Of a DNA stretch of 64,000 nt, positions 13,211-42,948 are shown piece after piece. Source of the DNA: Microbacterium sp. CGR2 (lineage in GTDB: Bacteria > Actinomycetota > Actinomycetes > Actinomycetales > Microbacteriaceae); contig NZ_RBHX01000001.1 of the NCBI RefSeq assembly GCF_003626735.1, positions 1,736,001 to 1,800,000 of the forward strand. The letters run 5' to 3'. Numbering within the stretch: the stretch's first letter is position 1; each line of letters opens with the position of its first letter. The translations under genes were made by a program, and so were the position numbers. The notes below the pieces were generated by a model, which was not told where the DNA came from, searched no databases, and saw only the letters and a program-made list of their open reading frames with translations.

Positions 13211-13239
13211 GAATTAAGCGCGTATTACACATCTAGACT
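13211..13239 (+). promoter_or_regulatory. Shared phage promoter motif (GAATTA-N17-TAGACT)
   Basis: GAATTA (13211-13216) and TAGACT (13234-13239) are separated by 17 bp. The same arrangement, also with AAGCGC after the first block in most copies, occurs six times in the late region on the - strand. Here it drives the early gene at 13284 with a leader of about 40 nt. Confidence 0.7.
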
Positions 13240-13283
13240 GGTCGAACGCCCCGCGCACGACCACGGCAAAAGGGAGAAGCACC

Positions 13284-13607
13284 ATGAGCATGACCATTGA
13301 AGAGATGGTGGCCCGGAGGGTTCACCTCGACGAGCAGATCGCCCGTCTGACGGACGAGAAGAAGCAGATCGACGAGAAGCTCCGCGAAGAGCACGACTAC
13401 GGAACGATCCCCGCCGGTGAATGGCGGGTCAGCATCGGCCGCAACCCTCAGTTCCTGAAGGAAGACTTCGAAAAGCGCTTCCCGGTCGCCATGTACCCGC
13501 ACCTCTACAAGCCGGTGCCGGACACCGCTCAGGTCAAGGAGTTTTTCGCCCCCGTGGAGCTGAAGAAGTTCTACGCCGAAGGCGCCAAGAAGATCACGGT
13601 CAAGTGA
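13284..13607 (+). CDS. Hypothetical protein of the recombination module
   Basis: A 107-residue protein with a charged coiled-coil start (VHLDEQIARLTDEKKQIDEK) and a strand-rich C-terminal half (WRVSIGRNPQFLKEDFEKRF). The ribosome site is AGGGAGAAG. Similar short proteins commonly precede exonuclease and SSB genes in actinophages, so a role with the exonuclease at 14777 is a context inference. Its stop overlaps the next ATG by 1 nt. Confidence 0.7.
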   Translation: MSMTIEEMVARRVHLDEQIARLTDEKKQIDEKLREEHDYGTIPAGEWRVSIGRNPQFLKEDFEKRFPVAMYPHLYKPVPDTAQVKEFFAPVELKKFYAEGAKKITVK

Positions 13608-14191
13608 TGAGCGCCACCACTCTCGCCCCGCCGCTCGACGGCCTGCGCTACGAGGTAGTCCACGCGATCGACGAGACCGAGGACTACACCGAAGGCGAAT
13701 CGCGCCGCCTCACTGACGACATCGCCGAAGCGAACGTGATCACGTCGCGCGTCTCCGGCGAGGAGAACCTCCACAAGGTGATCCTTGATATCGACTTCCC
13801 GGCCAAGCTCGTGCCCTCGAGCACAGACGGCCACTTCCACTTGTACATCGACAAGGCCATCCACTGGGAGGCATACGTCGACCTGCTCGGCGCGATGGCG
13901 GATGCCGGCCTGGTCGAGGAGGGCTACGTCTCGGCATCACTCGAGCGCGGTCACACTGCCGCCCGCCTGCCGTGGGTGAAGAAGTCCGACGGGCCGCGCC
14001 CCATCTGCGTCGGGTGCCGCAAGCGACCCCACGAGTTCTCCACGTACCGCTACATGGTCGCGGAGGATGGATACGCCGACGCCGACGAGGCGGTGCGTCG
14101 CAACGAAGGCACCTACAACCGCGAGAACGGCCACTTCTGGTGCGACGGCTGCTACATCCGCGCCGGTCAGCCGCTGGGGGTCGCGCAGTGA
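13607..14191 (+). CDS. Hypothetical protein with zinc-binding C-terminus
   Basis: A 194-residue protein in two parts: about 120 residues of acidic alpha/beta sequence (LHKVILDIDFPAKLVPSSTD) and a C-terminal segment with ICVGCRKRP and FWCDGCYIR, two CxxC knuckles that probably bind zinc. Coupled to both neighbours (TGATG and GTGA). It may bind DNA or act as an adaptor in the replication module. Confidence 0.65.
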   Translation: MSATTLAPPLDGLRYEVVHAIDETEDYTEGESRRLTDDIAEANVITSRVSGEENLHKVILDIDFPAKLVPSSTDGHFHLYIDKAIHWEAYVDLLGAMADAGLVEEGYVSASLERGHTAARLPWVKKSDGPRPICVGCRKRPHEFSTYRYMVAEDGYADADEAVRRNEGTYNRENGHFWCDGCYIRAGQPLGVAQ

Positions 14192-14604
14192 GCGCCATCA
14201 CGATCGCCTACGGCCCGACCGCTTCCGGCAAGTCGACCGCGGCTCACGCCTGGCGGAAGGAGGCGCAGAGTGCGGACCTCCAGCGTGTCATCATCGACGA
14301 GGCCACGTTCAGCGCCGCCGAGCTGCGCCGCGTCGACAACCTGCTCGACGGCGGGACGGACGTCTGGCTCAACTATCTGACCGATGCGGCCGAGCCCGCG
14401 CTGCCCAGCTTCCCGAATCACGATGTCGCGATCCGGCGTTTCCACCGACGGATGCATGATGCCGTGCGTACGTACGGACTGATGCAGGAGTGCAATGGTG
14501 TCGCGATCTACGCTCCCAACCCTTACCGCGAGGAGCTGTGGGGAGACGTGAATCCTGAATGGATGTGCGCCTGCCAGCGGTACGAGGCGGCGATGGACAT
14601 ATGA
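14188..14604 (+). CDS. P-loop NTPase / kinase-like protein
   Basis: A 138-residue protein with Walker A GPTASGKST at residues 9-17 and an acidic IIDEATF segment about 25 residues later. The size fits a short P-loop kinase or nucleotide-binding protein without the usual helicase motifs. The GTG start overlaps the preceding stop as GTGA. The C-terminal WMCACQRYEA region has two Cys. The substrate is unknown. Confidence 0.7.
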   Translation: MSAITIAYGPTASGKSTAAHAWRKEAQSADLQRVIIDEATFSAAELRRVDNLLDGGTDVWLNYLTDAAEPALPSFPNHDVAIRRFHRRMHDAVRTYGLMQECNGVAIYAPNPYREELWGDVNPEWMCACQRYEAAMDI

Positions 14605-14780
14605 GCGCCCACGACCTGAACTCGGCCGACTACGAGCGGATTGAGGCCGCCCTCCGCCACCTCATCCCCGAGACCAAGCGCACCGCTGCCAAGTGGCACC
14701 CGAAGGGGCTGCGGGCCTTCAACCGCACGCTCCGCAAGATCGAGCGGATCAACAAGACCGGAGAGTTCACCCAGCAATGA
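14601..14780 (+). CDS. Small basic hypothetical protein
   Basis: A 59-residue helical protein with a Lys/Arg-rich second half (KWHPKGLRAFNRTLRKIERI). It is held by 4-nt overlaps between the P-loop gene and the exonuclease gene. A helper role in recombination is possible only from context. Confidence 0.6.
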   Translation: MSAHDLNSADYERIEAALRHLIPETKRTAAKWHPKGLRAFNRTLRKIERINKTGEFTQQ

Positions 14781-16418: not shown

Positions 16419-17363
16419 ATGTTCCTGTTCATCCTCGCGATCATCCTCGCGATCATCGCAGTCGTCGGCGTGTTCGTCGCCACATCCTCAAAGGATCTGC
16501 GCTTCGGCGCGATCATCACCACCGCAATCACAGCGCTGGGCGCCATCATCGCTATCTTCTTCGCCACCTTCTACGCCAACGGCGTCGGTGAGGCGAAGGT
16601 CAAGGTCAGCTCCGTCGACCGGCAGGTCGTCGGGACTGTTGAAGAGCCTGGATCCGGCTTCAGAGCGCCGTGGGAAGACTTCGTCGAGTTCGACCTGTTC
16701 TCTCAGGAGCTGCTGTTCGCCGGCAGTGACGGCGGCGCCCCGAGCTACACCGGCGGCACGGTCAACGGCCGCGAGATCACCGTCTCTGTCGGCGGCGTCT
16801 CGGGCGGCTCCACGCAAGCCCAAGTCGACATGACCTTCGTCTACTCCGTGAACGCCGACGCCATCAAAGAGATCTACTCGGAGTACCGGTCGCAGGAGCG
16901 GTTCACTGAGCAGATCGTGACCCGCCAGGTGCTCTCGATCTCTCGGCAGGTGCCCTCCGAGTACAGCGCCATCGAGTTCCGCGGCTCCAAGCGAGGCGAG
17001 GCCGAGACGCGCATCCTCGACGCGCTCAACGAGAAGCTGGGCAAGTACGGGGTCGAATTCTCTGCGGTGACCATTCAGGACGTGCGATTCTCTGAGGACG
17101 TCGAGAAGTCGCTCACGTCCATCGAGCAGGCCAACCAGAAGGCGCAGGAGGCCGAGGCCAACCAGCGCACGAAGGAAGTCGAGAATGAGACGCTGATCGC
17201 ATCCGCTCAGGCTGAGGCGGACGCCAACAAGATCCTGTCGCAGTCGCTGTCGGCACCCGTGCTGCAGCAGCGCTACCTCGACACACTGGCGAAGCTCGCC
17301 AAGGAGGGCAACCTCGTGGTCGTCCCCGAGGGCTTCAACGGCCTGGTGAACGTCGGCAAGTAG
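16419..17363 (+). CDS. SPFH / band-7 (prohibitin-stomatin-like) membrane protein
   Basis: A 314-residue protein with two hydrophobic N-terminal spans (residues 1-22 and 30-52), an SPFH domain (about 60-215, with DRQVVGTVEEPGSGFRAPWE and VTFS-like strands), and a C-terminal coiled coil rich in Glu, Gln and Ala (ANQKAQEAEANQRTKEVENE). Family members oligomerise at membranes and modulate proteases such as FtsH. In E. coli the homologous HflK-HflC complex influences the lambda lysogeny decision through FtsH, so a phage copy could modulate a host protease or membrane. That is inference. It is preceded by a 42-residue membrane peptide. Confidence 0.85.
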   Translation: MFLFILAIILAIIAVVGVFVATSSKDLRFGAIITTAITALGAIIAIFFATFYANGVGEAKVKVSSVDRQVVGTVEEPGSGFRAPWEDFVEFDLFSQELLFAGSDGGAPSYTGGTVNGREITVSVGGVSGGSTQAQVDMTFVYSVNADAIKEIYSEYRSQERFTEQIVTRQVLSISRQVPSEYSAIEFRGSKRGEAETRILDALNEKLGKYGVEFSAVTIQDVRFSEDVEKSLTSIEQANQKAQEAEANQRTKEVENETLIASAQAEADANKILSQSLSAPVLQQRYLDTLAKLAKEGNLVVVPEGFNGLVNVGK

Positions 17364-17455
17364 CCCAAGACCACAACTGAATACTCCGGTGAATGCACGC
17401 GTGGGGACGCGCGAGGGGAACCGGCGGCCTGGCCCTCCGAGGAACGGGCTTCACG

Positions 17456-17521
17456 GGCAGGAGTGCAGTAGGGCACAGCGCAGCGCGCATGCGTTACACG
17501 GGTTCGATCCCCGACCTGCCA
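17456..17521 (+). ncRNA. tRNA-like cloverleaf, non-canonical
   Basis: 66 nt fold as a cloverleaf: acceptor GGCAGG/CCTGCC (17456-17461/17515-17520) with a final A, D-arm GTGC/GCAC around AGTAGG, anticodon-arm GCGCA/TGCGT around a 7-nt loop, and T-arm CGGG/CCCG around TTCGATC (17503-17509), the classic T-loop. It lacks the usual two-nucleotide acceptor-D linker, and the anticodon loop GCGCGCA has no U33. It is therefore a tRNA relic, a decoy or a structural leader rather than an ordinary tRNA. Confidence 0.5.
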
Positions 17522-17562
17522 CGCAGATCAAGATCTTAAATTCGACCGAAAGGAGCAGCGTC

Positions 17563-20082
17563 ATCAATTCCATCGACAAAGCTCTGGCACTAGCCGACCT
17601 GGACATCTACGTCTTCCCCGCCTATGAGGCGGACGAAGTCGTGGACGGGCGACTGAAGGAAGCGAAGACGCCGCGCACGCGCAGGGGTCACCACGAGGCG
17701 GTCACAGACCGCCAGCAGATCATCACCTGGTTCACCCGCTGGCCGCATGCACTCGTCGGCGTCAACGCCGGCAAGTCAGGGCTCATCTGCGGTGACATCG
17801 ACATGGGCGAGGACAAGCACGGCAACGTGCACGACGGCTGGGCCACCCTCGTCGAGAACGGGCTGGACGAGCTGCCCGACACGTTCAACTACGAGACCCG
17901 CCGCGGCGGCAGTCACTACATCTACGAGCCAGTCGACGGGCGGTACCTGAACGGCACGAAGAATCACGTCACCCCCCAGGGTGTCGTGCTCGACTCGATC
18001 GACCGCCGCGCCGGCTCCTCGTACTTCATCTGGTGGGGCGACGAGGTGCCCACTGCTCGCGACGAGTTCGCGCCGGCGCCGGAGTGGCTCCTCACCCCGG
18101 CCACCGAGCCCGACTACTCCCCGTTCGGTGGCACCGCCGATGAGTGGCTCGCGAAATGCGAGCCCGGCGAGCCCGGCAGCTTCCTCCTCGAGTTCGTCGA
18201 CAACATCCCGAAGGAAGACTTCGGCCACGACGAGATGATCCAGATGCAGGCGGCCCTCATCGGCCTCGGCGCATCAGGCAAGCCCGGCGTCCCGTGGGCG
18301 CTCGACCAGCTCCGCCGGGAGTGGCTGCGACCGCCTTACGACACGGAGGTCTATCAGGCCGACTGGCTCATGGGACTCCGCGGTGCGATCGACAAGTACG
18401 GAGCTTTCGAGGGCGACATCCTGGCCGACTTCGCGGGGCCGAAGGCGGCGCCCGTGGAGATCGACTACGTGGATGCTGCTGGGCGCGTGAACGACCCCGC
18501 ATTCTTCACCGCCTGGACGTCGCTGCCCGCTGCAGTGACACCCGAGTCGCTCACAGAGCGCGTGCGGCACGTCCTCACCCTGGTCCTTGCAGATGGTGCA
18601 GTCAGCCGCCGGGAAGCCGTCGAGATCGCATGGAACGCAGCCGCGCGGAAGCACGCGGACTGCACGATTCAATCGCGCGAGGGTGTGGAGGCCCTCGCCG
18701 CCGACACGTTTCCGGGCGAGCGGCTATTCACGATGGAAGAGGCGCAGGCCCAGCCCGAACTAACCCAGGGCGCGAAGTCCAGCAGGCGCGTTCACCTACT
18801 CAAGCCGACCGAAGAGGCCGCGCTGGAAAGCATCACCTGGTGGGGCGACGGAAAGAGAGAGGAGAACTTCATGGCACGCATGCACGAGATCAACCCCGTC
18901 ATGAGCGAGGCGTACTACCGCCTGACGCGCTGGATGCTGCTCTCGCTCATTTTCGCGAGCAAGGCGGTCATCCCCGCGGAGAACGGCACCATGGTGCCCC
19001 TGAACTTCTACGGCATTCGCCTAGGCCCGTCCGGCTCCGGCAAGTCGGAGTCGCTGCAGCCGATCCAGGACATGATGGCGGCCTACTACCTCCCCGAGGA
19101 AGACCCCGACATTGGTGGAGACTCGACGACCGCCGGCCTCACGCAGGCTCTGATTCGCAGAGACGGCCGCACGTCGTTCTTCCACGCAGACGAGGCCGAC
19201 GCGGTCTTCCGCAGCTGGTCTGAGTCGCAGGGCGCGTTCAGCGGCATGAAGAACCGAATCATGGACATCTTCGGCAGCAAGGTGCCGATGCTCAACCGCA
19301 CTGGGGCTAAGGAAATCTCCGGCATCCGCGCCACGGCGTACCTGTGCGTCGATCTCACCGGAGTCGACGATCGAATCACCGACGCTATCGAGCCGCACGA
19401 TTGGGAGAGCGGGTTCGTCAACCGCTTCGTCTGGGCGAAGGGCGAGCGGAAGCGGATGTCCGACGAGCAGAAGATGTTCCGCATCAGAAGGCCTGGCCAG
19501 ACCGGCGGCAGAGGGATCGAGAACTGGTACGGCCAGTGGGCAGCACAGTTCCGTGCAGTCTCCGAGACCCGACTGACGTCGCCGGACGGCAAGCCGGTGT
19601 GGATCGACATGAAAGACGATGTCCTCCTGCGAGATGTCGAGGTGCAGAACCGCTTCGAGGCGCTCGCTCAGAACAGCGCCTACCCGGAGAGACTCAGGCC
19701 TACGTTCACTCGAATGACGATGACCATCCGCAAGTGCGCCGCGCTCGTGGCAATCACGAAGAGGCGCACTGTCATCGAGATGGAGGACTATCTCATCGCG
19801 CTCGAGCAGGCGGAGGAGTGGGTCGAGAACATCCTCGAGATGGTGGAAGCCACCGACGAATCCCCGCGGGCTCGCCAGGCCAACCGTCTCGCCGCGCTTA
19901 TCGCCTCGCGGCCGGGCCGGTCCATGAAGCGCACCGAGATCCACGCGCAGAAGGGCTACGCCGGCAACTCGAAAGACACCAACTCGCTGATCGACGAACT
20001 CGTCCAACAGGGGCGAGCGGAGATCCTGCCCATCGGCAAGACCGAAGCACTCATCCGCCTCGAAGAAGGGAGCGCAGCATGA
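17563..20082 (+). CDS. Primase-polymerase with DUF3987-type helicase domain
   Basis: A protein of about 840 residues. The N-terminal prim-pol (AEP) domain has the typical opening ALALADLDIYVFP and GDIDMGEDKHG with catalytic acids (about residue 77). The central ATPase has Walker A GPSGSGKS (about 488) and HADEAD (about 540). The C-terminus is a winged helix (about 775-835). It should prime and unwind during phage replication. No ATG, GTG or TTG exists near the domain start. A ribosome site AAAGGAG (17549-17555) points to ATC at 17563, 7 nt downstream; an upstream ATG at 17389 would run through the tRNA-like element. The start is thus provisional. Its stop overlaps the next ATG by 4 nt. Confidence 0.85.
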   Translation: MNSIDKALALADLDIYVFPAYEADEVVDGRLKEAKTPRTRRGHHEAVTDRQQIITWFTRWPHALVGVNAGKSGLICGDIDMGEDKHGNVHDGWATLVENGLDELPDTFNYETRRGGSHYIYEPVDGRYLNGTKNHVTPQGVVLDSIDRRAGSSYFIWWGDEVPTARDEFAPAPEWLLTPATEPDYSPFGGTADEWLAKCEPGEPGSFLLEFVDNIPKEDFGHDEMIQMQAALIGLGASGKPGVPWALDQLRREWLRPPYDTEVYQADWLMGLRGAIDKYGAFEGDILADFAGPKAAPVEIDYVDAAGRVNDPAFFTAWTSLPAAVTPESLTERVRHVLTLVLADGAVSRREAVEIAWNAAARKHADCTIQSREGVEALAADTFPGERLFTMEEAQAQPELTQGAKSSRRVHLLKPTEEAALESITWWGDGKREENFMARMHEINPVMSEAYYRLTRWMLLSLIFASKAVIPAENGTMVPLNFYGIRLGPSGSGKSESLQPIQDMMAAYYLPEEDPDIGGDSTTAGLTQALIRRDGRTSFFHADEADAVFRSWSESQGAFSGMKNRIMDIFGSKVPMLNRTGAKEISGIRATAYLCVDLTGVDDRITDAIEPHDWESGFVNRFVWAKGERKRMSDEQKMFRIRRPGQTGGRGIENWYGQWAAQFRAVSETRLTSPDGKPVWIDMKDDVLLRDVEVQNRFEALAQNSAYPERLRPTFTRMTMTIRKCAALVAITKRRTVIEMEDYLIALEQAEEWVENILEMVEATDESPRARQANRLAALIASRPGRSMKRTEIHAQKGYAGNSKDTNSLIDELVQQGRAEILPIGKTEALIRLEEGSAA

Positions 20083-20468
20083 ACCTCACGCCGCTAGAAG
20101 AGGCCCACTGGGTCTACACGCACCGCGAGGAGTATGACCGTCAGCAGCGCTATGACGCCGCCGTCTCGCTCTCTCAGTGGGGGCGATTCTCGCTCCGTCA
20201 GGTGGCCGCGATCTGCGGGATCGCCCACTCGACCGTGAAGGTGGTCGCGGGCTCCAAGTCCGAGAAGACCGGCGGACGGTTCAACCCCGCCTGTCTCCCG
20301 ATCCTCATCGACATCCGCGGCAGAAGGGTGCGCGGTGAGGCCGTCGACGCGGACACCGTCAGGCGTCTCGTCTCCACCGGCACATCCCTCGGCTTCGCGG
20401 CACGCCTCAGCGAAATCCCCGAGTCCTATCTCAGGCGCAGGCTCGAACGATCCGAGGAGGCAGCGTGA
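20079..20468 (+). CDS. Helix-turn-helix DNA-binding protein
   Basis: A 129-residue basic protein. The segment FSLRQVAAICGIAHSTVKVV is a helix-turn-helix, and the C-terminal part has a second helical unit (TSLGFAARLSEIPESYLRRR). It is translationally coupled to the primase-helicase gene. It may help load the replisome or regulate genes. Confidence 0.7.
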   Translation: MNLTPLEEAHWVYTHREEYDRQQRYDAAVSLSQWGRFSLRQVAAICGIAHSTVKVVAGSKSEKTGGRFNPACLPILIDIRGRRVRGEAVDADTVRRLVSTGTSLGFAARLSEIPESYLRRRLERSEEAA

Positions 20469-25064: not shown

Positions 25065-25082
25065 CGATTAGCGCTCTAATCG
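25065..25082. promoter_or_regulatory. Palindrome upstream of the phosphoesterase gene
   Basis: CGATTAG-CGCT-CTAATCG is a perfect 7-bp inverted repeat 22 bp upstream of the phosphoesterase start. It could be an operator or a small hairpin. The flanking GTGGTCGATT also occurs just after the promoter at 39022. Confidence 0.4.
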
Positions 25083-26118: not shown

Positions 26119-26814
26119 TCAGGCGTTCTTGATCTCGTCGACCTGCGCCTTGGTGGCGTCCCACGCCTTGGCGCCATTGAGCTTCGCGGCCTCCCATTCA
26201 GCCTTGGAGAGAGGGCGCTTCTTCCCGGTGATCGGGTGGATCACGTAGACGCGGTCGTACGGTGCTCGGTTGTAGACGTAGCTCGGTTCCATGTCGTCCT
26301 CCTCGGACTCGTCGGGCTTGGGTGCCGGCTTCGGAGCCGGCTTGGGGTTGAGGTGGGATCCGCTGCCACTGGAGGCGAACGCGGGGATGACCCAGGGGTT
26401 GTTGAAGTCGCCGACGTGCCACTGCTCGCGCGGCGAGACGAAGTCGACGCGGAGGCCGGCGAGGCGCATGAGCGCGGCGAAGCGGGCCCAGCCCATCTCG
26501 GCCCAGTTGTCCACGTCGATCGCGAAGACTTCCTGGTTGTGGTACCAGCCGCCGTGGCTCGACCATCCCGGCACCGCGGCTAGCTGGCCGAAGGCGTTGC
26601 GGTAGAGCTTCTGCGCGCTCAGAGGCCGGTAGCCGTTCCAGGTGTACTTCCCGGTACTGTTCTGCCCGGTGATGCGCAGGCGAACGCCGTACTTCTTGAC
26701 GCCCTGCTGCACGGCCCAGTTCCAGCGTGCGAGCGTGCCGGCGGGCAGCCAGATGTTGTTCTGGACGTGGATCAGCTTGTGGAGGGGGACTTCGCCGTTG
26801 CGGTAGGCCATCAC
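26119..26814 (-). CDS. M15-type endopeptidase endolysin
   Basis: A 231-residue protein. The catalytic domain carries the M15 (VanY/D-Ala-D-Ala peptidase) residues H87 and D100 in SHGGWYHNQEVFAID, and E130 and H133 in REQWH. A Lys-Pro-rich linker (KPAPKPAPKP, about 155-165) leads to a C-terminal 60-residue part that may bind cell wall. It should cut peptide cross-links of peptidoglycan at lysis. GTG/ATG start overlapping the upstream tail gene. Confidence 0.85.
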   Translation of the reverse strand: MMAYRNGEVPLHKLIHVQNNIWLPAGTLARWNWAVQQGVKKYGVRLRITGQNSTGKYTWNGYRPLSAQKLYRNAFGQLAAVPGWSSHGGWYHNQEVFAIDVDNWAEMGWARFAALMRLAGLRVDFVSPREQWHVGDFNNPWVIPAFASSGSGSHLNPKPAPKPAPKPDESEEDDMEPSYVYNRAPYDRVYVIHPITGKKRPLSKAEWEAAKLNGAKAWDATKAQVDEIKNA

Positions 26815-27495: not shown

Positions 27496-27524
27496 ACGCT
27501 AGACGCGAATTTGGCGCTTAATTC
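27496..27524 (-). promoter_or_regulatory. Shared phage promoter motif (leaderless)
   Basis: On the - strand GAATTA (27524-27519), 17 bp, TAGCGT (27501-27496), then 7 nt to the ATG of the tail protein gene. It lies within 30 nt of the end of the upstream gene. Confidence 0.7.
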
Positions 27525-33206: not shown

Positions 33207-34081
33207 GGCCCCACCTCGACCAGTCGGGCAGAGACGCTCATCCGGCCGAAGTACGCGGAGATCGGAACCTCGGTCGGCGGGTCGAACATCCGGCAGCCGG
33301 AGTTCCCGCCGCCGCGAATGAAGCCGGCGCCGACCGGGGACTGGCCGATGGGGAGGACTTCCACCATCATCCCCGCGATCGTCCCGGAGCTGGGAAGGAG
33401 GGTGCCGCCGACGTTCAGGCCAGGCTGCACCCGGATGCCGATGCCCGTCATGTTTCCGGCCTGGGGGATCACGGTGGTGAAGCGCGTCGGGTCGCTCGCG
33501 GCGATCGCCGGGAGCGCCTGTGACGGAGCGAGTGCCGTGTGCCCATTGAAGGTCTGCAGGCTGACGATGCTGCGCTCCGCGGCGGCACTCGCAGAATGGA
33601 TGCCGACGTGTGCGGCAAAGCCGGGCGGGACGGGGACGTAGCAGACGGGGGCCTGGCCGCCGGTGGTCGTGAACAGCGCGGACACCTTCGGCAGCTTCTT
33701 GGCGTTCGCTGCGGTCACTACCCCAGTCGGGCGCTGGAGGGCACCGATGATAGGCCCGTCCGTCACGCTGAGCCCAGGGAAGGACCAGTGGGCGGGGAGG
33801 GCGTTCTTGATCATGGGATCAAGCCAGTGGACAAGCTCGTCGACGTTCGTCGAGTCGACGCCGTAGTACATGTCGCTGAGCAGGCGTGCCGTCTCGGTGG
33901 GGACCGTGTTCCACGAGAGGTCGTATTCCATGTGGGTCGCGCGCGAGCGCCGCCCGGAGGTGCGTCCGTTGCGGTCTTGCGTCGTGGCGCTCCAGCCAAC
34001 GGGTTGGAACGCGGTTCGCGGCGCGGGCGCCTTGATCCACTGCTCCGAGCCCCGAAGGCCCATCCAGACCGTGCTTCCCAT
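33203..34081 (-). CDS. Distal tail-type minor tail protein
   Basis: A 292-residue beta-rich protein directly downstream of the tape measure gene, the usual position of the distal tail (Dit) protein. Features are a basic N-terminal stretch (GRTSGRRSRATH) and a Trp-rich start (WMGLRGSEQWIKAP). The start is inside TAATG at the end of the tape measure gene. Confidence 0.75.
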   Translation of the reverse strand: MGSTVWMGLRGSEQWIKAPAPRTAFQPVGWSATTQDRNGRTSGRRSRATHMEYDLSWNTVPTETARLLSDMYYGVDSTNVDELVHWLDPMIKNALPAHWSFPGLSVTDGPIIGALQRPTGVVTAANAKKLPKVSALFTTTGGQAPVCYVPVPPGFAAHVGIHSASAAAERSIVSLQTFNGHTALAPSQALPAIAASDPTRFTTVIPQAGNMTGIGIRVQPGLNVGGTLLPSSGTIAGMMVEVLPIGQSPVGAGFIRGGGNSGCRMFDPPTEVPISAYFGRMSVSARLVEVGP

Positions 34082-37000
34082 TACGCTGCCCCTCTCCGGG
34101 CGGTGACGACGTTGTGCGAGCCCACCGAGCCCGCAAGTGCGGCGCCCGGCAGGATGAGCTGCAGGTTCGCTGCCAGCAGGTCGGCGAGGAGGCGAGCGGA
34201 GGACGCGGAGATGTCCATGGGGCCGCCGCCACCGGCTCCGATGCCTGCGGGCGCGACAGCCTTGCCCTGCTTGGCCATGCGGTGCATGAATGCCAGGTTG
34301 TTGACGCCGATCGTGCGGGTGGCGTCGGCATTGAAGACGAACTCTTTGCCGTGGACGGCGCCGCGAACCTCAGAGGAGCTAGCGCCGCCGGTGTAGCCGC
34401 CGCCGGAGAAGCCGGCGCCGTCCACCTGGATCGAACCGGTGCCCCTGTCGAACTTGGCGCCGATACGCCGTCCGGCGAGGGTCGCTCTGAGGCCCTCGGC
34501 GAGACCACCGCCGACCTGCGAACCGAGGCGAACGCCGCTGTTCCAAGCGTTGGCGCCCTGTCCGTTGGCCCAGTTGCCTGTCGGGTTGTAGCCCTTGAGG
34601 CCCTGCTCGAGACCTGCTCGAACCCCGCCGGAAGTCTTCGATCCGACCTGACCACCCGCGGCCTGGCCGAGCGTCTGCTGCTCGTTGGCCCAGCCGCTAC
34701 GGATGACGTCGATCTCGCCCATGTCTGCCTTGAGGCGGTTGTCGAAGGTGTCTGCGACGCCGATCGCAAGCTCGTCACCGGCGTAGAAGGCGTCGAGCAG
34801 GCCGCCCTCGGCTGCGATGGCGATGGAGCGGCCCACGGCGTCGCCCATCTTGCGGCCGCCTGTGTTTTCGCCGAGGCCAAGGTCGAAGCCCTCACCGAAT
34901 GCCGCGCCCGCGCCTGCTCCGCCCGAGGCGGCCGTAGTGGCGGCCTGGGCCATGAACTCGCTGAGCGCCTGCATGGCGGGATCGCCATTGAATTCGACCG
35001 TGATGTTGCGCGGGACGTGCTGGATGATCGTTCCCATGTCGCCGAACGACTTGGCGTACTTCTCGATCTCCGCACGGTTGTACCCGAGCCCCGTCGCCTG
35101 GTTGACGAACTCGCCACGGAGGCGAGCGGCGATGCGGATCAGCTCCTCCTGGCTGGTTCCGGAAGCGGCCAGCGACTGGAGGTATGACTGGTAGTTGCCG
35201 ACGAGGCCGAGGATCTCGCCGCGGTTCTCTGCGGCCGCAGCGTTGTTGCCGACGAGGCTCTTGTTGGCCTTCGCCTGCTCGGCTGCCAGGTTCTTCTTCT
35301 CGGCGGCCATGTCGGCGTCCAGCTCTGCCAGTTCAGCGCGCAGCTTCGCGGCGCGCAGCTCGTCCTTGTAGTTGACGGCGACGGACAGCCAATACTGCTT
35401 GATGGAGCGGTCGGCGCCCATCTCGGAGAGCTTGCGCTGATGGGCTGCTGCTGCCTCGCGCGCGGCATGCGCGGCGTCGCGGATCTTCTGCCAGCCGCTG
35501 AGGATTGAGTCGAAGCTCTGGTCGCTGCCGAAGCGGATGTCGGTGGACCGCTTCATCACGGTCTGGAGGTCGTTGGCGTAGTCGGCGAGGGTGCGTACCT
35601 TCTGGGCGGCGTCCTCCGCTGCCCCGCCCAGACCCTCTGCGCCGTCGGTCGGGGCCTCCCAGTCGAGGCCTGCCAGAGTGTCGGTCAGCTCGTCACCTGC
35701 GCCGGCGGCCAGTCCGAACCCTTCAGCGAGGCCACCCGTGGCGGCGCCCGCGCCGTTGGCCGAATCGGCGAGCCCGAACAGCAGGTCGGCTGCGGCAGTG
35801 ACGATACCGATGACGATGGTAGCGCGGCCGAGCGCGATGAGCGCTCCTCGTGCGGTGAGGGCGGCACCAGCGAGCGTGCGCATGCCGCCTGCCGCTCCCG
35901 CGGCAGCATTGCCGGCGGTGGCGGCGCCCGCAGCGGCCACCGTCCCTGCCGTACGTAGCCCGAGCAGGGAGGCAATGAGTCCGCCGACGCCGCGCGAGGT
36001 ACCGGCCGTGACGATACCCAGCTCGATGGCAGCGAGGCGCATGGCGAACAGAGATCCAGCCCACACGGCCGCGACCGACCCGATGCCGGCGAGAGTGGCG
36101 AACAGCGCGGCCGCAGTGCCTGCGAGCCGGAACATGTAGGCGCCGAAAGGGGACTCGGCGAACGAAGCGAGCATCTGCAGGAGGCCCGACAGCGCGTCGA
36201 TCGCCTTGATGATGTTCGGGGCCAGGGTGGCACCGATCGCGCCGCCGGCCTCCGCGAGGGCGTTGACGAAGATCTGCCACCGCGAAGCCAGGTCGTCGAG
36301 GACCTTGTTGAACTGACTGCTCAGCTCCGTGCCCTCCGTCCACCCCTGGTTGGAGTCTCCGAGAGCCTTGTTGAAGACGTCGACGTTCGAGGCGACACGG
36401 CCGAAGACCTCACCGGCGCGGATGCCCTGCAGGCCCAGCGCCTCGAGGGCACCCGTGCGGGAGATGGAGTCCATCTTCCCGAGTCCGACGGCAACGCGCT
36501 CGAAGAATTCGACGGGGTTGGAGCGGACGAGTCCCTCCACCTCGCCAGTGGCCACACCTGCGACGCTGGCGAAGGAGTCGAGGCGAGCCCCACCGTTCGC
36601 GATGGCGGTATTTAGGCGGTTGAAATACACCTCCATCACACCCTGAGCACGCTCGGGGGCGACACGGAGGGATGCCAGGGCGCCGGACAGTGCGATGACT
36701 TCCTGCGCGGAGAAGCCCGCGCTGGTGGCGGAGGCCGCAAGGCGAGTCGACATGGACACGATCTCCGCCTCGGTGGCGACCGAGCGGCGGCCTACGAGGG
36801 CGATGGCGGATCCGAGGTTCTCGAACTGGTCGACCCGAAGCTCAGTGCCGTCGGTGTTGCGCAGCAGCTCACCGAGTGCACCGAACGCGGTAGCGGATGC
36901 TTCCACGGTGAGTCCGGTGACGGCAGCGAATCGGGCGGTCGTCTCGGTGAAGCCTGCTACCTCGCCCGACGTGATGCCGAGCTGGTTGCCGAGGGTCGCG

Positions 37001-37743
37001 ATCTCCGACACCTGCGTGAATGTGAGGGGGATCTCGCGGGTAAGCCCCATGAGTTCGCTACGCAGCGCGGCGACACCCTCAACGCCCATCGACTCACTGC
37101 CGTCGAGGGTACGCTCCACGTTCGTGAACGCAGACTCCTGAGCAGCGGCCAGCGCGGCCACAGCGATAGTGGCGCCGCCGAGAGCGATGGAAGTGGTGCG
37201 GGCGGTGGTGGCCACGTCGTAGAGCGCGTAGCGAAGACGGGGGGAGGCCTGGTCGGCGAGTTCACGTTCTGCCTGAGCGAGCGAGCGAACCTGCGCGGCG
37301 GCCTGCTTGGACTCGTCAGCGAGGAGGTTCGCCCCGGAGCCCTGGCGATACTGCGCGACATCCTGGCCAGAGACGCCCTGGCTGGCCATGAACCTGCGGG
37401 GGTCGACGGGAGCCCCGCCAGCTGCTGCTTGCGTCTTCGAGATGGCGCGGTAGGCATCCTCAGCCTCGCGGATGCGCCCGGCGAGGGCCCGCCACTCGTC
37501 GGATGCGCCCTCGGCGCCTGGCCCGAGATCCTTGCGTGCGGCGCGGGCAGCCGTGCCAGTCTCCCTCAGCGCGCCAGTCGTCTTCTCGATGAAGCGAGCG
37601 GCCTCCCGGCTGGAAGCACCTACCCGGTCGAAGAGATCGTCGAGATCGCCGCCCCGTTCACGGAACGTCTCCATGTCGTTGAGCGCTTGGCGCAGGTCAA
37701 CGGCGATGGATAGCGCTGCCCGTGCGTCGAATGCGTCTGCCAT
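34081..37743 (-). CDS. Tape measure protein
   Basis: A 1,220-residue protein that sets tail length. The N-terminal 600 residues are helical with long coiled-coil stretches and Ala/Gln-rich repeats; several hydrophobic stretches in the middle (GTAAALFATLAGIGSVAAVW, AAGAATAGNAAAGAAGG) are typical of tape measures and may insert in the host membrane at ejection. The second ATG at 37743 is better spaced from GCGGAGG than the first at 37746. The frameshifted chaperones lie just upstream, the classic order. Confidence 0.9.
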   Translation of the reverse strand: MADAFDARAALSIAVDLRQALNDMETFRERGGDLDDLFDRVGASSREAARFIEKTTGALRETGTAARAARKDLGPGAEGASDEWRALAGRIREAEDAYRAISKTQAAAGGAPVDPRRFMASQGVSGQDVAQYRQGSGANLLADESKQAAAQVRSLAQAERELADQASPRLRYALYDVATTARTTSIALGGATIAVAALAAAQESAFTNVERTLDGSESMGVEGVAALRSELMGLTREIPLTFTQVSEIATLGNQLGITSGEVAGFTETTARFAAVTGLTVEASATAFGALGELLRNTDGTELRVDQFENLGSAIALVGRRSVATEAEIVSMSTRLAASATSAGFSAQEVIALSGALASLRVAPERAQGVMEVYFNRLNTAIANGGARLDSFASVAGVATGEVEGLVRSNPVEFFERVAVGLGKMDSISRTGALEALGLQGIRAGEVFGRVASNVDVFNKALGDSNQGWTEGTELSSQFNKVLDDLASRWQIFVNALAEAGGAIGATLAPNIIKAIDALSGLLQMLASFAESPFGAYMFRLAGTAAALFATLAGIGSVAAVWAGSLFAMRLAAIELGIVTAGTSRGVGGLIASLLGLRTAGTVAAAGAATAGNAAAGAAGGMRTLAGAALTARGALIALGRATIVIGIVTAAADLLFGLADSANGAGAATGGLAEGFGLAAGAGDELTDTLAGLDWEAPTDGAEGLGGAAEDAAQKVRTLADYANDLQTVMKRSTDIRFGSDQSFDSILSGWQKIRDAAHAAREAAAAHQRKLSEMGADRSIKQYWLSVAVNYKDELRAAKLRAELAELDADMAAEKKNLAAEQAKANKSLVGNNAAAAENRGEILGLVGNYQSYLQSLAASGTSQEELIRIAARLRGEFVNQATGLGYNRAEIEKYAKSFGDMGTIIQHVPRNITVEFNGDPAMQALSEFMAQAATTAASGGAGAGAAFGEGFDLGLGENTGGRKMGDAVGRSIAIAAEGGLLDAFYAGDELAIGVADTFDNRLKADMGEIDVIRSGWANEQQTLGQAAGGQVGSKTSGGVRAGLEQGLKGYNPTGNWANGQGANAWNSGVRLGSQVGGGLAEGLRATLAGRRIGAKFDRGTGSIQVDGAGFSGGGYTGGASSSEVRGAVHGKEFVFNADATRTIGVNNLAFMHRMAKQGKAVAPAGIGAGGGGPMDISASSARLLADLLAANLQLILPGAALAGSVGSHNVVTARRGAA

Positions 37744-37782: not shown

Positions 37783-37811
37783 AGGCTAGGCTCGAATTTG
37801 GGCCTTAATTC
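37783..37811 (-). promoter_or_regulatory. Shared phage promoter motif
   Basis: On the - strand GAATTA (37811-37806), 17 bp, TAGCCT (37788-37783), upstream of the tape measure gene with a leader of about 30 nt containing GCGGAGG. Confidence 0.7.
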
Positions 37812-37817: not shown

Positions 37818-38252
37818 TCAATCGTCTTCATCTTCGACCTCTTCGGCCCGCTCGGCAGCGAGCTGCTCGTAGTACAGCGAGCGGAAGTCGCTGAGGGGAG
37901 TGTCGTCGGTCGAGTAGAACTCGGGGTAAGCGACTCCTGACTTGCTGTCGTCGTTTACGTGCTTCTTCTCCTCCTTCTTCACCTCGTTGGAGGCGTAGCA
38001 GTCGTCGAACTTGACCTTCACCTGGAGGCGCGGGTCGGAGTTCCTGCAGAGCCATCGAGGCAGGCCGCACTGCGAGCACTGCTCGTCCTTGACGATTTGA
38101 TACGCCTGCATGATGAGCACGTCGAGGTGTGACCAGGGCTTGCGGTTGTCCTCTCCGAGGATCATGGTGGTGGGCCGAACGCCGGCGGCCAGACTGGCCT
38201 TGATGAGGCTCAAGTACCTGCCGCCGGCGTTAGACGACAGGTACTCGGCTAA
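37818..38252 (-). CDS. Tail assembly chaperone, -1 frameshift extension
   Basis: The reading frame is open from the slippery site at 38252 to 37818 without its own good start (a TTG at 38213 is the first possible). It encodes about 144 residues including ASLAAGVRPTTMILGEDNRK, EQCSQCGLPRWLCRN and a charged, acidic tail. This is the G-T extension typical of siphovirus tail assembly chaperones, produced when ribosomes slip back one base at the end of the preceding gene. Confidence 0.8.
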   Translation of the reverse strand, partial: LAEYLSSNAGGRYLSLIKASLAAGVRPTTMILGEDNRKPWSHLDVLIMQAYQIVKDEQCSQCGLPRWLCRNSDPRLQVKVKFDDCYASNEVKKEEKKHVNDDSKSGVAYPEFYSTDDTPLSDFRSLYYEQLAAERAEEVEDEDD

Positions 38253-38258
38253 AAATCC
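38249..38258 (-). other. Slippery site for -1 frameshift
   Basis: Read on the - strand the gene ends GGATTTTTAG. Ribosomes paused with TTT in the A site can re-pair one base back on the T-run and continue as TTA GCC GAG TAC, in frame with the downstream extension. The stop of the short product is the TAG at 38251-38249. Confidence 0.7.
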
Positions 38259-38992
38259 GCGTCGTCGGTGGCGTTGTGCTCGATCGCGACTTCGTACGAC
38301 AGCTCCAGCATCGCGCGCTCAAGGCGCGGGAACTGGCCCTCGGGGAGGTAGTCGCGAAAGGTCCGGGCTCGTTCGATCGACAGCGACGAGTGCGTTTCGT
38401 CCTGCTCGACGTCCGTCCAGGATTCGACGGAGGCGACAAGCGAGACCGCGGAGTGCTCCAGCTCGTACTCGTCCACCATGTCGGCGGGGACGTTCTTGCC
38501 CCTGATGCCGAGGTTCAGGCGGGCTCGACGACGCATGTCCCGCTTGATGATGTCGGGCAGGCTGTGGAGGGTGAACTTGAAGGCCGTGGCCTCGAGGCGC
38601 TTCTTGAGCGCCGTGACTTTTCGCTTCTCCTTCGCCAGCTCGGCCTGGATCTCCTTGGCTCGCTCGGTGTCGGCCTCCGGGACTTCCAGCCCTGCCTCGA
38701 CCTGATGCTCGATGCGCTTCACGAGGGAGTTGCCTTCCTCCTCGAGCTGGTCAATGCGGCCGGCGATGCCCCTACGGACGCGGCGGCCGGTTCGGATCCC
38801 GCCCTCGGTCTGGTCGAGCGCGTACCCCAGCTGGGCTCCTGCTTCCGAGTCGGTGTAGATCGTCACGGACTTGCGGCGCTTCGACTTGCCGGCCAGGCGG
38901 TTGACCAGCTCGAAGTCCGTTCGAGCTGATTCCTGGATGCCGTCGAGTTCCGCTTCGATCTCGGCGGTGGCGTCCTTCTGCTTCTTGGCCAT
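38249..38992 (-). CDS. Tail assembly chaperone
   Basis: A 247-residue helical, charged protein. The first 150 residues are coiled-coil (TERAKEIQAELAKEKRKVTA). It lies just before the tape measure gene, as do tail chaperones such as lambda gpG, and its 3' end has a slippery sequence giving the extended form. The ribosome site is GAAGGAGGG. It folds or coats the tape measure during tail assembly. Confidence 0.85.
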   Translation of the reverse strand: MAKKQKDATAEIEAELDGIQESARTDFELVNRLAGKSKRRKSVTIYTDSEAGAQLGYALDQTEGGIRTGRRVRRGIAGRIDQLEEEGNSLVKRIEHQVEAGLEVPEADTERAKEIQAELAKEKRKVTALKKRLEATAFKFTLHSLPDIIKRDMRRRARLNLGIRGKNVPADMVDEYELEHSAVSLVASVESWTDVEQDETHSSLSIERARTFRDYLPEGQFPRLERAMLELSYEVAIEHNATDDADF

Positions 38993-39021: not shown

Positions 39022-39050
39022 AGGCTATGTGCGATTTAAGACGCTAATCA
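39022..39050 (-). promoter_or_regulatory. Shared phage promoter motif
   Basis: On the - strand TGATTA (39050-39045), 17 bp, TAGCCT (39027-39022), upstream of the tail chaperone gene. It directly follows a terminator, so chaperone and tape measure form a new transcript. Confidence 0.65.
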
Positions 39051-39057: not shown

Positions 39058-39093
39058 ACGACGAAGCCCCCGATTCCTCGAGGGCTCCGTCGT
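39058..39093 (-). terminator. Terminator after the tail-tube genes
   Basis: A 12-bp stem with one A.C mismatch (ACGACGAAGCCC / GGGCTCCGTCGT) and a 12-nt loop lies 15 nt after the stop of the tail-tube gene on the - strand. Confidence 0.65.
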
Positions 39094-39874: not shown

Positions 39875-40471
39875 TTACGCCGCGAGGACGTAGTTGGGCT
39901 TGGCCGTGGACTTGGAGATGAAGACCTGCTGGATCTTCTGCTTCTGGCCATCCGCGTGAACGTTGACCGGGAGGTCCGTGTGCGAGTAGTACACGTCGAT
40001 CTCCTGGCCGACCGCGAACGGGACGGTGGAGGCGTAGCCCACGCGGTGGACGATGATGTAGGGCACGTCCGGCGCGAAGGTGAGAGCCTTCCACAGCGCG
40101 AACACGCTGTCGGCAGCGGCGGGGTTGGCATCCCGGAAGCCGGTCATGTCGTTGTCGAAGCCGAAGTCGGTCAGGTCGACGGAGTTGGCGGGCTCGCAGA
40201 GCGTCTTCTCATCGTCCTCCTGAGAATCCGTGAAGCTCAGCGTGAAGCCGTCGGACACGATGGCGCAGGACACGTTGCCGCCCGCGCCCGCATTCGCGTG
40301 GCCGGTGCTCGTGATCGGCGCGTAGCGGTTGAGGACCGCGGTCGTCAGCGCGTCGTACGCGACGAGACCCGTGGGGGTGATGGCATTCGGGATGCCGAGC
40401 ACCTCGTGGGCAGGGATGAGAAGGACCGTGTCTGTCTCATTGATCAGCTTGTCAGGAATGGGAACCACCAC
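39875..40471 (-). CDS. Tail tube-like protein, paralogue without Ig domain
   Basis: A 198-residue protein with the same beta-rich core as the adjacent tail protein but no Ig-like extension. It starts at GTG 40471 (leader about 30 nt from its promoter); a second GTG follows directly. The two genes may give two tube subunits or a tube and a terminator. Confidence 0.75.
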   Translation of the reverse strand: MVVPIPDKLINETDTVLLIPAHEVLGIPNAITPTGLVAYDALTTAVLNRYAPITSTGHANAGAGGNVSCAIVSDGFTLSFTDSQEDDEKTLCEPANSVDLTDFGFDNDMTGFRDANPAAADSVFALWKALTFAPDVPYIIVHRVGYASTVPFAVGQEIDVYYSHTDLPVNVHADGQKQKIQQVFISKSTAKPNYVLAA

Positions 40472-40507: not shown

Positions 40508-40536
40508 AGGCTAGGCGGGTTTTGCTCCCTTAATTT
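40508..40536 (-). promoter_or_regulatory. Shared phage promoter motif
   Basis: On the - strand AAATTA (40536-40531), 17 bp, TAGCCT (40513-40508), upstream of the tail-tube genes. A + strand -10 for the opposing endonuclease lies 14 bp to the right. Confidence 0.7.
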
Positions 40537-40555: not shown

Positions 40556-40561
40556 TGCTGC

Positions 40562-41314
40562 ATGCCATCACGCCCGCATTCGAAATCCCAGCCGTTCTGC
40601 CACGTAGAGGGTTGCTTCAACTTCCGCCGAAGCAACCGATACTGCCCTGGGCATACGAAGCAGGAGCGAGCGGGGCTCGCATTCTCGACGCTCCCCAAGC
40701 AAAAGCTCGAGGCGTGGGCCGTCCCGGAGTGCTCGTTCGAGGCATGCGAGAACTTCGCGTCCCGTCGAGGCCTGTGCGATGGTCACTATGCCCAGTCGAA
40801 GCGAGGTGAGGGGTTGCGCCCGCTACGCAAGCACTCATGGCAGCGTGGAGGTGTGTGCTCCTTTGATGGATGTATGCTCCCGATGAAAGCGAACGATCTC
40901 TGCGCGACACATGCCAGCCAGCGTTACTTCGGGCACGAGCTTCACCCGATTCGCGGCCGCATTTCGTGCCCGGTGCCAGACTGTGAAGGGACCTACACCG
41001 CGAAGTCGTCGATCGAGTTCTGCGCGAAGCACACACGAGTCCTGCGCCTCTATGGGCTCACTCCCGAGCGGCTCATGCAGATGTACGTCGCTGGCTCAGT
41101 TTGCGAACTCTGTGGCGACCGGACGAAGACCGCGATCGACCATGACCACGCCTGCTGCGCTGGTGAAGGCTCTTGCGGCGAATGCGTTCGCGGGACCCTT
41201 TGCCTGAACTGCAATCACATGCTGGGCAGCGCCCGTGATAGCCCGGAGGTCCTGCGCGCGGCTATCGCTTACCTGCAGAGTCACGCCGAGCGGTCTTTGC
41301 GTCTCGCCGCGTGA
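40562..41314 (+). CDS. Recombination endonuclease VII-like protein with zinc modules
   Basis: A 250-residue protein on the opposite strand to the late genes. The C-terminal part matches endonuclease VII (T4 gp49): CELCG at 181-185, catalytic DHDH at 193-196, then CVRGTLCLNCNHMLGSARDS. In front are four modules of Cys-x4-Cys, Cys-x2-His (C13/C18/C28/H31, C57/C62/C72/H75, C99/C104/C114/H117, C136/C141/C154/H157) that should each bind zinc. It may resolve branched DNA or act as a homing-type endonuclease. Its 3' end overlaps the convergent gene by 53 nt. Confidence 0.85.
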   Translation: MPSRPHSKSQPFCHVEGCFNFRRSNRYCPGHTKQERAGLAFSTLPKQKLEAWAVPECSFEACENFASRRGLCDGHYAQSKRGEGLRPLRKHSWQRGGVCSFDGCMLPMKANDLCATHASQRYFGHELHPIRGRISCPVPDCEGTYTAKSSIEFCAKHTRVLRLYGLTPERLMQMYVAGSVCELCGDRTKTAIDHDHACCAGEGSCGECVRGTLCLNCNHMLGSARDSPEVLRAAIAYLQSHAERSLRLAA

Positions 41315-41516
41315 CGTTCCCCTCACCCGACTTCTCTTCGTGGGACGCGAGATAGTCGGCGACTGCCTCGCTGGGGATCGGGGTGAAAGCGAGAGGCTTC
41401 GCATCGACGTCAACTTCGATGAGGTTTGGATCCTCGAGAGCGACTCGGCGGTCGTAGACGCCGATGAGCCCGGTGCGTGCATGGCGGTACGTCCTCGGCG
41501 CGTTCAGGTCATCCAT
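41262..41516 (-). CDS. Small hypothetical head-tail region protein
   Basis: An 84-residue protein (VALEDPNLIEVDVDAKPLAF, then a basic tail TRRDAKTARRDSAGKR). Short proteins of this type occur next to tail and connector genes in actinophages. The ATG is 7 nt after the -10 of its promoter, indicating a leaderless mRNA. It is separated from the tail-tube genes by the inverted endonuclease. Confidence 0.65.
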   Translation of the reverse strand: MDDLNAPRTYRHARTGLIGVYDRRVALEDPNLIEVDVDAKPLAFTPIPSEAVADYLASHEEKSGEGNVTRRDAKTARRDSAGKR

Positions 41517-41523
41517 ACGCTCA

Positions 41524-41552
41524 AGGCTAGGCGCGATTTTGGCGCTTAATTC
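41524..41552 (-). promoter_or_regulatory. Shared phage promoter motif (leaderless)
   Basis: On the - strand GAATTA (41552-41547), 17 bp, TAGCCT (41529-41524), then 7 nt to the ATG at 41516. It is one of the cleanest copies, with AAGCGC after the first block. Confidence 0.75.
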
Positions 41553-42010
41553 TGGACGGAGTGGTCCCAGTCGACGCCCTGATTCACCGTGGTCTCCAGG
41601 TAGAGCCCCTCGATGTACCGGGTAGGGACGTTTTCGGTTGCGGGGCGGCGCGATCCGAAGCCGCCCTTCGCCTCGTAAGCATCAGCGGATTCTGACGGCT
41701 TCCAGTCGACCAGCAGCTCGATGACGTCAGCCATGAGATCCTGCGCGTCATCGGGGTCGCCGGCGACGCACGCGATAGTGGCGCCCAGGACGTGAGGCTG
41801 GCCCAGCTCGCTGTTGGTGAGGTTTCGGTCGCGCTTCGTCTTCACGGGGGCGCCGAACGTGATCACCGCGTAGGCCATCACTGAACCGTCTTCGGTGTGA
41901 CGCGGGATGATCGCTTCGTCGTCGACCGACCCTTGCCAGGCGCGGCCGCCGTTGATCGTCTTCAGTTTCGCCAGGGTGTTGCGTCGCTCCTGGAGTCCGT
42001 GTGCGGCCAT
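41546..42010 (-). CDS. Tail terminator-type protein
   Basis: A 154-residue protein in the usual position of the tail terminator (minor tail U-like) that follows the neck protein in siphophages. It has a central beta pattern (VMAYAVITFGAPVKTKRDRN, IACVAGDPDDAQDLMADVIE). Start by TGATG overlap with the upstream gene. The assignment rests on order and size. Confidence 0.65.
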   Translation of the reverse strand: MAAHGLQERRNTLAKLKTINGGRAWQGSVDDEAIIPRHTEDGSVMAYAVITFGAPVKTKRDRNLTNSELGQPHVLGATIACVAGDPDDAQDLMADVIELLVDWKPSESADAYEAKGGFGSRRPATENVPTRYIEGLYLETTVNQGVDWDHSVQN

Positions 42011-42468
42011 CAGCTCACCTTCAGTCCTGCGTTGCTCAGGCGCTCGAGCATCATCTCTCGCGCCTCGACGTACGACTGCTGGAGGGCCATCATTCCTTCG
42101 ATGTCCGCGGTGCCGTACTCCTGGTAGAGGTAGTAGATCTCGAGGCCAAGCTCCCAGCCCCACGAGCCTTCGACTCGGCTGCCGCCGAAGAGGTCGATGT
42201 TGGATTGGATGTCGTCGATCATGTTGCCGCTGTCAATGCGGCCGGGATGTCCGCCGCTCGTAGCAGCGCGCTCTGCACCCGTCCTGGTGATCGCCGTCTC
42301 GATGATCTCCTTCATGCGGTCCTCGCCGAAGAGGGTGGCGTCCTCGATGATCCCGTGGGCGAAGTCGAGAAGCTGCTCTTCGAGTTGGCCGCGCATCCAG
42401 TCCTCGATGTCGCCGATCGCGAGAGTCACCGATTTGCGCGCGGTGCCGTGGCGACCGCGATTAGCCAC
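42010..42468 (-). CDS. HK97 gp10-like neck protein
   Basis: A 152-residue acidic helical protein starting at GTG 42468, 8 nt before the upstream stop. In length and position it fits the HK97 gp10-type neck/connector protein next to the tail terminator. The sequence itself is not diagnostic. Confidence 0.6.
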   Translation of the reverse strand: MANRGRHGTARKSVTLAIGDIEDWMRGQLEEQLLDFAHGIIEDATLFGEDRMKEIIETAITRTGAERAATSGGHPGRIDSGNMIDDIQSNIDLFGGSRVEGSWGWELGLEIYYLYQEYGTADIEGMMALQQSYVEAREMMLERLSNAGLKVS

Positions 42469-42913
42469 GGCCGCCCTCGGTGACTGTCTCGATCGTTCGG
42501 AGTGCGGCATGCGACGAGTTCGTGGCGAACCGCACCTGGAACTTCATCTTCGCAAGCTCTGGATCGCGGCCGCCGGTGAACTCCACGACGAGTCCCTGAG
42601 TGACCGACTCCTCGGTGATCTCCGGGTCGCCGGCGAGGATCTCGCACTGGAAGCGGTAGCGACGACTCGACTGAGCACCGCCCCCGCTGCTCGTCTCTTT
42701 CGGCGCTTGGAGGTGCTGCGCGCGGGCCCGCCGTCGACTAAGCACGATCTCGCCGGGCGTGTACGGCCCGTAGTCGCCGGTCACCTTGTCGCGTGTGCCT
42801 CGCGTGCCTTTCGTGCTGACGGTGATCTCGCCGTTGAACTCGAGGACGGCCTCGTCGCGGATCTCGTCAGCCCAGCTCGAGCTAGTGCGCGAGGGGGGAC
42901 GGGAGAGGGCCAT
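42461..42913 (-). CDS. Head-tail connector-type protein
   Basis: A 150-residue protein, first structural gene after the integrase. It is beta-rich (GEITVSTKGTRGTRDKVTGD, KMKFQVRFATN) and in the position of a head-tail stopper. The ATG lies 6 nt after a TAAACT -10, so it is probably leaderless. No terminase, portal or capsid gene precedes it. Confidence 0.65.
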   Translation of the reverse strand: MALSRPPSRTSSSWADEIRDEAVLEFNGEITVSTKGTRGTRDKVTGDYGPYTPGEIVLSRRRARAQHLQAPKETSSGGGAQSSRRYRFQCEILAGDPEITEESVTQGLVVEFTGGRDPELAKMKFQVRFATNSSHAALRTIETVTEGGRG

Positions 42914-42919
42914 TCGTCC

Positions 42920-42948
42920 AGTTTAGGTTCGACCTCGTTGCCTAATTC
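42920..42948 (-). promoter_or_regulatory. Shared phage promoter motif (leaderless)
   Basis: On the - strand GAATTA (42948-42943), 17 bp, TAAACT (42925-42920), then 6 nt to the ATG at 42913. It sits 6 nt from the end of the integrase gene. Confidence 0.7.

Follow-up and report, generated by a model that had tools for sequence, protein, structure and literature searches.

We analysed a repeated promoter-like motif in a prophage of the soil bacterium Microbacterium sp. CGR2, using a stretch of 64,000 nucleotides from its genome (NZ_RBHX01000001.1, positions 1,736,001 to 1,800,000; hereafter the window, with coordinates counted from its first base). The original prediction described seven sites with the pattern GAATTA, 17 bp and TAGCCT, or close variants, and proposed that GAATTA differs from a usual -35 box and may need a phage factor for its recognition. 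The observation is sound and amounts to what we read as a phage-wide operator set. At most sites the GAATTA block makes up one side of a palindrome. Different palindromes are present in related prophages at a similar place relative to the same type of -10 element, and both features are at odds with the reading of GAATTA as a -35 box; a phage factor is probably involved all the same. Because of these two features, and because many palindromes have no -10 element nearby, we interpret the sites as operators bound by a regulator that the prophage itself encodes, a repressor most likely, and we hold this explanation as a whole with moderate confidence.

All seven predicted sites were recovered on the expected strands, each with a 17-bp spacer. 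The first ~44.4 kb of the window belong to the prophage, which starts about 25 kb to the left of the window. Allowing up to three mismatches, the pattern has 17 matches in the window, compared with a mean of 8.4 in shuffled sequences, none of 100 of which reaches 17. Up to two mismatches give eight matches, seven of which are the predicted sites; the eighth, at 32430, does not exceed 9 bits in the matrix search. In leave-one-out tests the matrix scores are 17.2-50.3 bits, and 1 Mb of Markov sequence searched on both strands contains one position above 11 bits and none above 12. Across the whole 3.97-Mb genome, GAATTA-N17-TAGNCT with at most one mismatch has 11 matches, 8 within the ~69-kb prophage and 3 elsewhere, and the reversed-pattern control has 2. 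Within the prophage, [GAT][AG]ATTA-Nk-TANNNT matches 10 times at k=17 and never at k=12-16 or 18-22. Three further sites lie beyond the window in the same prophage (1714692, 1716265, and the weaker 1729160 on contig C1 of this genome, G000), giving a total of ten. These ten sites look like promoters: TANNNT is present at all ten, with the reservation that it partly defined their selection and that the transcription starts are predicted. TTGACA is missing at -35, and several sites are nearly identical to each other. An ATG, assigned by a gene caller blind to the motif, lies 6-7 nt past the -10 at five of the ten sites, which suggests leaderless mRNAs, while the distance is 29-44 nt at four sites and 210 nt at the weakest one.

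The first 18 nt of the motif form a dyad (GAATTAAGC|GCCAAATTC) centred near -26.5, with the GAATTA block as its left half. With these 18 nt folded back on themselves, 52 of 90 possible pairs are complementary at the ten sites together; the null mean is 20, and 0 of 5000 draws reach the observed value. A subset of six sites with less redundancy has 26 of 54 pairs (null 12), again with 0 of 5000 draws. The symmetry is maximal when the centre is set between positions 9 and 10, with 59% of the pairs in nine sites complementary, compared with 11-46% at other centres. Of the seven sites in the window, four show a clear dyad.

As the prediction had stated, one promoter-like motif precedes both the replication module and virion genes. 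The only forward-strand site in the window (13211..13239; 19.3 bits, 6 of 9 dyad pairs) lies 44 nt from the ATG of the gene that starts at 13284, the first of the replication and recombination module. The other six sites are on the reverse strand. The strongest dyads are found at 27496..27524 (25.2 bits) and 37783..37811 (24.2 bits), both with 7 of 9 pairs and an exact GAATTN8AATTC; the former is 7 nt from the ATG at 27488 of gene 26811-27488, a relative of gene 44 of phage Lifes, and the latter is 39 nt ahead of the tape measure gene (34081-37743). The site at 41524..41552 (23.7 bits, 6 pairs) matches GAATTN8AATTC with one mismatch and is 7 nt from the ATG at 41516 of gene 41262-41516. A weaker dyad at 39022..39050 (14.5 bits) has 3 of 9 pairs, or 5 when its centre is shifted by half a base, and stands 29 nt ahead of gene 38249-38992, a tail assembly chaperone by a weak PHROG match. 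The dyad is borderline at 40508..40536 (11.9 bits, 2 of 9 pairs), 36 nt from the GTG of gene 39875-40471, which is followed by the major tail protein gene. No clear dyad is seen at 42920..42948 (4 of 9 pairs), 6 nt from the start of gene 42461-42913, which has no PHROG match and is a connector gene by position only. A dyad without a -10 (CGATTAGCGCTCTAATCG, 25065..25082, no strand assigned, weak score of 11.2 bits) lies upstream of gene 23750-25042.

We compared this prophage with its relatives. The portal protein has matches in 6 of 198 same-genus genomes, including its own; one weak partial match was set aside, and the other four prophages (G153, G009, G120, and G022) were compared. Two further nearly complete phages, a prophage of another genus (G335) and a virus record (L122), were found through a DndB-like protein described below, and both have palindromes. 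A palindrome-constrained motif search by expectation maximization (EM) of the intergenic gaps assigns each of the six relatives one palindrome family of its own, for example TTAGTCGACTAA, TTAGCGCGCAAA, and CGATAAATATTTATCG. The same-genus families are TTWGCGCGCWAA in G153, TTWGCRYGCWAA in G009, TTAGTCGACTAA in G120, and TTAGCTAGCTAA in G022; G335 has TTAGCYRGCTAA and L122 has CGATAAATATTTATCG. The search likelihoods in the four relatives and G000 are 69-201, compared with 26-37 in shuffles. At 15 bits, the five prophage matrices have 13-21 matches in their own prophage, 0 in 28.5 kb of host flank, and 0-1 in 500 kb of Markov sequence. They are largely phage-specific, the largest cross-matches being 11 (G009 matrix in G153), 5 (G000 in G120), 4 (G153 in G009), and 4 (G120 in G153). 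Exact matches to the degenerate dyad TTWGYNNRCWAA number 51 in 390 kb around G153, G009, G120, G022, and G335, compared with 0 for the inverted control, and host flanks (100 kb) have none. In the first 50 kb each of the phages Lifes, Pan2, and CMP1, the dyad also has 0 matches (150 kb in total; control 1), and the motif search yields no palindrome family. Inspection by eye shows -10-like elements without a palindrome ahead of several of the same genes or gaps in these three phages, partly at leaderless spacing. A common operator of the phages L117 and L119 was rejected, its 4 matches being at chance level (Markov mean 2.1, maximum 8).

Two side observations concern these phages. Lifes (L016) repeats a -10 TAGAAT, mostly as TGATAGAAT, in the gaps before the late genes 22, 23, 26, 30, 39, 42, and 44, with some near-leaderless cases, and this repeat is a putative common late promoter of a different kind. 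Pan2 (L015, ON968453.1) is annotated as a phage of the cyanobacterium Pseudanabaena, yet the records with a match to the same portal protein come mostly from actinobacterial phages; its host label may deserve a check.

The position of the palindromes relative to -10 elements bears on their function. In five prophages, 84 palindromes score 15 bits or more. A TANNNT lies 10-16 nt away from 31 of them, and the other 53 have none at this distance on either side, which is not what a mere promoter element would show. The distance from the palindrome centre to the -10 is 13-14 nt in 25 of the 31. In two relatives, at L114 19336 and L112 11485, the dyad overlaps by eye the -10 of a leaderless start. 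The palindromes are more likely to be operators, with repression favoured over activation.

Two proteins are the leading candidates for the regulator. The DndB-like ParB-fold protein, whose gene lies beside the small terminase gene, exceeds the PF14072 cut-off (29.1 bits) with 87-90 bits in all three proteins scanned, and two of the three also have a DGQHR domain above its cut-off. It is present in all five prophages found independently of it (G000, G153, G009, G120, and G022) and in none of Lifes, Pan2, and CMP1. A tblastn search at 1e-5 has no match in 50,697 phage records, and the protein was found here solely in prophages and virus contigs. A matrix match of at least 13 bits lies within 350 bp upstream of its gene in 8 of 13 phages (G000, G153, G120, G335, L114, L112, L117, and L119). 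The second candidate is a 129-amino-acid (aa) protein with two predicted helix-turn-helix (HTH) units (20079..20468, + strand in the window), which is present in all seven palindrome phages, with a diverged G335 homologue in a syntenic place (relaxed search, E 0.017). Foldseek searches with both proteins gave no match in the PDB at E 0.001, the viral structure library gave three matches at this threshold for the DndB-like model with uninformative names, and PDB sequence searches with the candidates gave nothing credible.

Other candidates were rejected. None of the 18 sigma70 region-2 matches in the genome lies in the prophage, in a genome-wide search that covered region 2 alone, and this speaks against a phage sigma factor. 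The phage WhiB-like gene (12576..12950, +; PF02467 33.4 bits, above the gathering cut-off of 23.6) lies 260 bp upstream of the site at 13211. As a universal binder, WhiB was rejected: it is found in G153, G009, G022, and G335, and also in Lifes and Pan2, which lack palindromes; the nearest match to the G120 prophage, which has the strongest palindromes, lies ~17 kb outside its left end. The gene upstream of WhiB (11941..12345, +) encodes a two-HTH protein (208 aa) that is unlikely to be the universal binder, with no match at E 1e-3 in G335 (relaxed best 0.008) or the L122 record. Only G000 and G120 have the small HTH protein encoded in the presumed immunity region.

Several observations weigh against the interpretation of the sites as repressor operators or against the leading candidates. 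The sites at 40508 and 42920 have no evident dyad by their pair counts, and the prophage of the window, which has a different half-site, lacks TTWGYNNRCWAA altogether. Among 21 further DndB-bearing pieces of up to 21 kb, 15 lack TTWGYNNRCWAA, and the 6 positives include records of phages already counted. The palindrome-EM likelihood also exceeds shuffles in Lifes, where it reflects the -10 motif (70.7 vs 29-32), and by a small margin in Pan2 (39.8 vs 28-32), so that by itself it is no proof of symmetry, and we relied on dyad counts and the symmetry test; the negative group consists of three phages, 50 kb each. As G335 and L122 were selected through the DndB-like protein, its presence there is no evidence. 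Its gene has no upstream matrix match in G022, G009, L118, L110, and L111, and the match in L119 rests on a matrix that is at chance level there. The 129-aa protein also occurs in CMP1, which has no palindromes. Operator and protein similarities across eight phages are uncorrelated (Mantel p 0.37 for the DndB-like protein, 0.50 for the 129-aa protein, 0.95 for TerL, and 0.18 for portal, the L118 matrix being derived from G022-matrix matches), and covariation is no help in choosing between the two proteins. The 13-14 nt register (25/31) would also suit an activator that contacts the polymerase, and since the other 6 of 31 distances are near the chance estimate (about 4), variable phase is weak evidence.

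An activator, in line with the original prediction, is an alternative that we consider rather doubtful. A phage protein, for example the 129-aa two-HTH protein or WhiB together with sigma-A, would bind the dyad at -35 and recruit polymerase to replication and late promoters, consistent with a -10 register that is fixed in the window prophage and mostly 13-14 nt elsewhere, with sites that lack TTGACA, with WhiB and HTH genes in the rightward operon just ahead of 13211, and with a prophage free of sigma70 region-2 matches. An activator would leave the 53 palindromes without a nearby TANNNT and the palindrome-free late -10-like starts of Lifes, Pan2, and CMP1 poorly accounted for, activator sites are seldom dyads centred near -26.5, and the occurrence of WhiB in Lifes, Pan2, and G120 does not follow that of the palindromes. 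Ordinary sigma-A promoters could instead have spread by duplication with no dedicated regulator: several sites are nearly identical, Lifes repeats its own -10 too, and TANNNT is the usual actinobacterial -10. Duplication leaves unexplained the dyads of different sequence in seven phages and the palindromes away from any -10, and we find it improbable. Loading or partition sites of ParB type, where palindromes load the DndB-like clamp for prophage maintenance and promoter overlap is secondary, seem very unlikely, as a chromosomal prophage with an integrase has no need of partition and many sites keep a fixed register to the -10.

Under the favoured interpretation of the sites as operators, they would be promoters for the replication and virion genes of the prophage, with the sigma-A-type polymerase of the host probably recognizing TANNNT, and about half of them would start leaderless mRNAs. 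Most of these promoters would hold a palindromic operator centred near -26.5 that overlaps the -35 and spacer region, and the likeliest mode is repression, in which the bound regulator would exclude polymerase from many lytic promoters in the lysogen, while operators without a nearby -10 may aid silencing of the remaining genes. Operators may have drifted apart among the related phages until each had its own, presumably with a protein to match; the regulator is probably the DndB-like protein, the 129-aa protein of the replication operon, or both jointly. It is possible, though we think it unlikely, that the two act in a KorB-like manner, with the DndB-like protein as a nucleotide-dependent clamp without an operator-reading domain, loaded at TTTAGC-type palindromes by the small KorB-HTH-like protein and silencing the whole prophage, including late promoters, with the operator code of each lineage defining an immunity group. 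If repression from these operators is correct, temperate phages would silence many late promoters directly, besides early ones, through a genome-wide operator set; a DndB-family protein could act outside DNA phosphorothioation, and phage-specific operator codes would predict which related prophages exclude each other.

The left end of the prophage encodes terminase, portal, protease, and head proteins; the prophage further has a rightward replication module that includes a Prim-Pol protein (17401-20082), leftward tail genes, and a serine integrase (42954..44402, -; phrog_95, 1.2e-82) at its right end. In the pieces examined from a 69,092-bp IMG/VR record, 7 of the 10 sites are unchanged. The integrase lies within the late region (window 42461-44402; L009:11311-14684), so integration parts the left-end head genes from the right-end connector and tail genes; no common word of at least 12 bases, as an attachment-site repeat, was found between L009:10501-12100 and window 44301-45300. 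The integrase start, as taken (44402), is 4 bp from the stop of a host siderophore-interacting protein gene (44407-45159, PF04954), upstream of which a three-mismatch match to the pattern (45152-45180) resembles an IdeR/DtxR iron box. The replication region also encodes an SPFH/band-7 protein (16419-17363; PF01145, 4e-23). Hairpins seen by eye immediately upstream of the sites at 13211 and 39022 (13173-13211 and 39058-39093) are possible terminators or regulatory RNA, and Rfam and tRNA scans of the window found nothing. L010:14050-14560 contains by eye two DnaA-box-like TTATCCACA and TGTTGAAC/GTTCAACA repeats, possibly an origin with an early promoter TTGAAC-N17-TACTGT.

Among the titles listed in literature searches, with subscription journals largely outside their coverage, none describes such a palindrome or operator system. 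Among known systems, Streptomyces phage phiC31 has multiple palindromic (inverted-repeat) sites for its c repressor at lytic promoters, described for early promoters. Cluster A mycobacteriophages, with their stoperators and immunity repressor, are similar in having many repressor-site copies across a temperate actinophage genome (PMC9283540). Stoperators are described there as asymmetric sites to which a monomer binds through two DNA-binding domains, whereas the sites described here are dyads as a set (52/90 pairs, 0/5000 null draws), lie on replication and late promoters, and have candidate proteins only. KorB, a cytidine triphosphate-dependent clamp, acts from OB sites to silence promoters of RK2 (PMC11790492), with the operator TTTAGC(C/G)GCTAAA (PMC2680271); with at most one mismatch, OB has 1 match in the window's prophage and 0 in seven other phages. 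DndB is assigned to the ParB-CTPase fold and termed an adenosine triphosphate-dependent repressor of the dnd operon (PMC12704722), the S. lividans protein is termed a negative regulator (PMC6186775), and PMC10853773 questions repression of this operon as the sole role of DndB. Isolated actinophages are reported to carry other DndB-domain genes in the vicinity of lsr2 genes (PMC8612146). The prophage protein is far under the TIGR03233 DndB equivalog cut-off (best 29 of 328 bits, and no match at E 1 for the protein of the window prophage), and those neighbouring genes that have matches encode terminase and other phage proteins, where no search was aimed at dndCDE. The palindromes also differ from the TACG-N10-CGTA palindromes bound by Salmonella DndB, which regulates its own operon (PMC4507180). 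The likeness to DndB of phosphorothioation systems lies in PF14072, in the DGQHR domain of two of the three proteins, and in the precedent of palindrome binding by the Salmonella protein.

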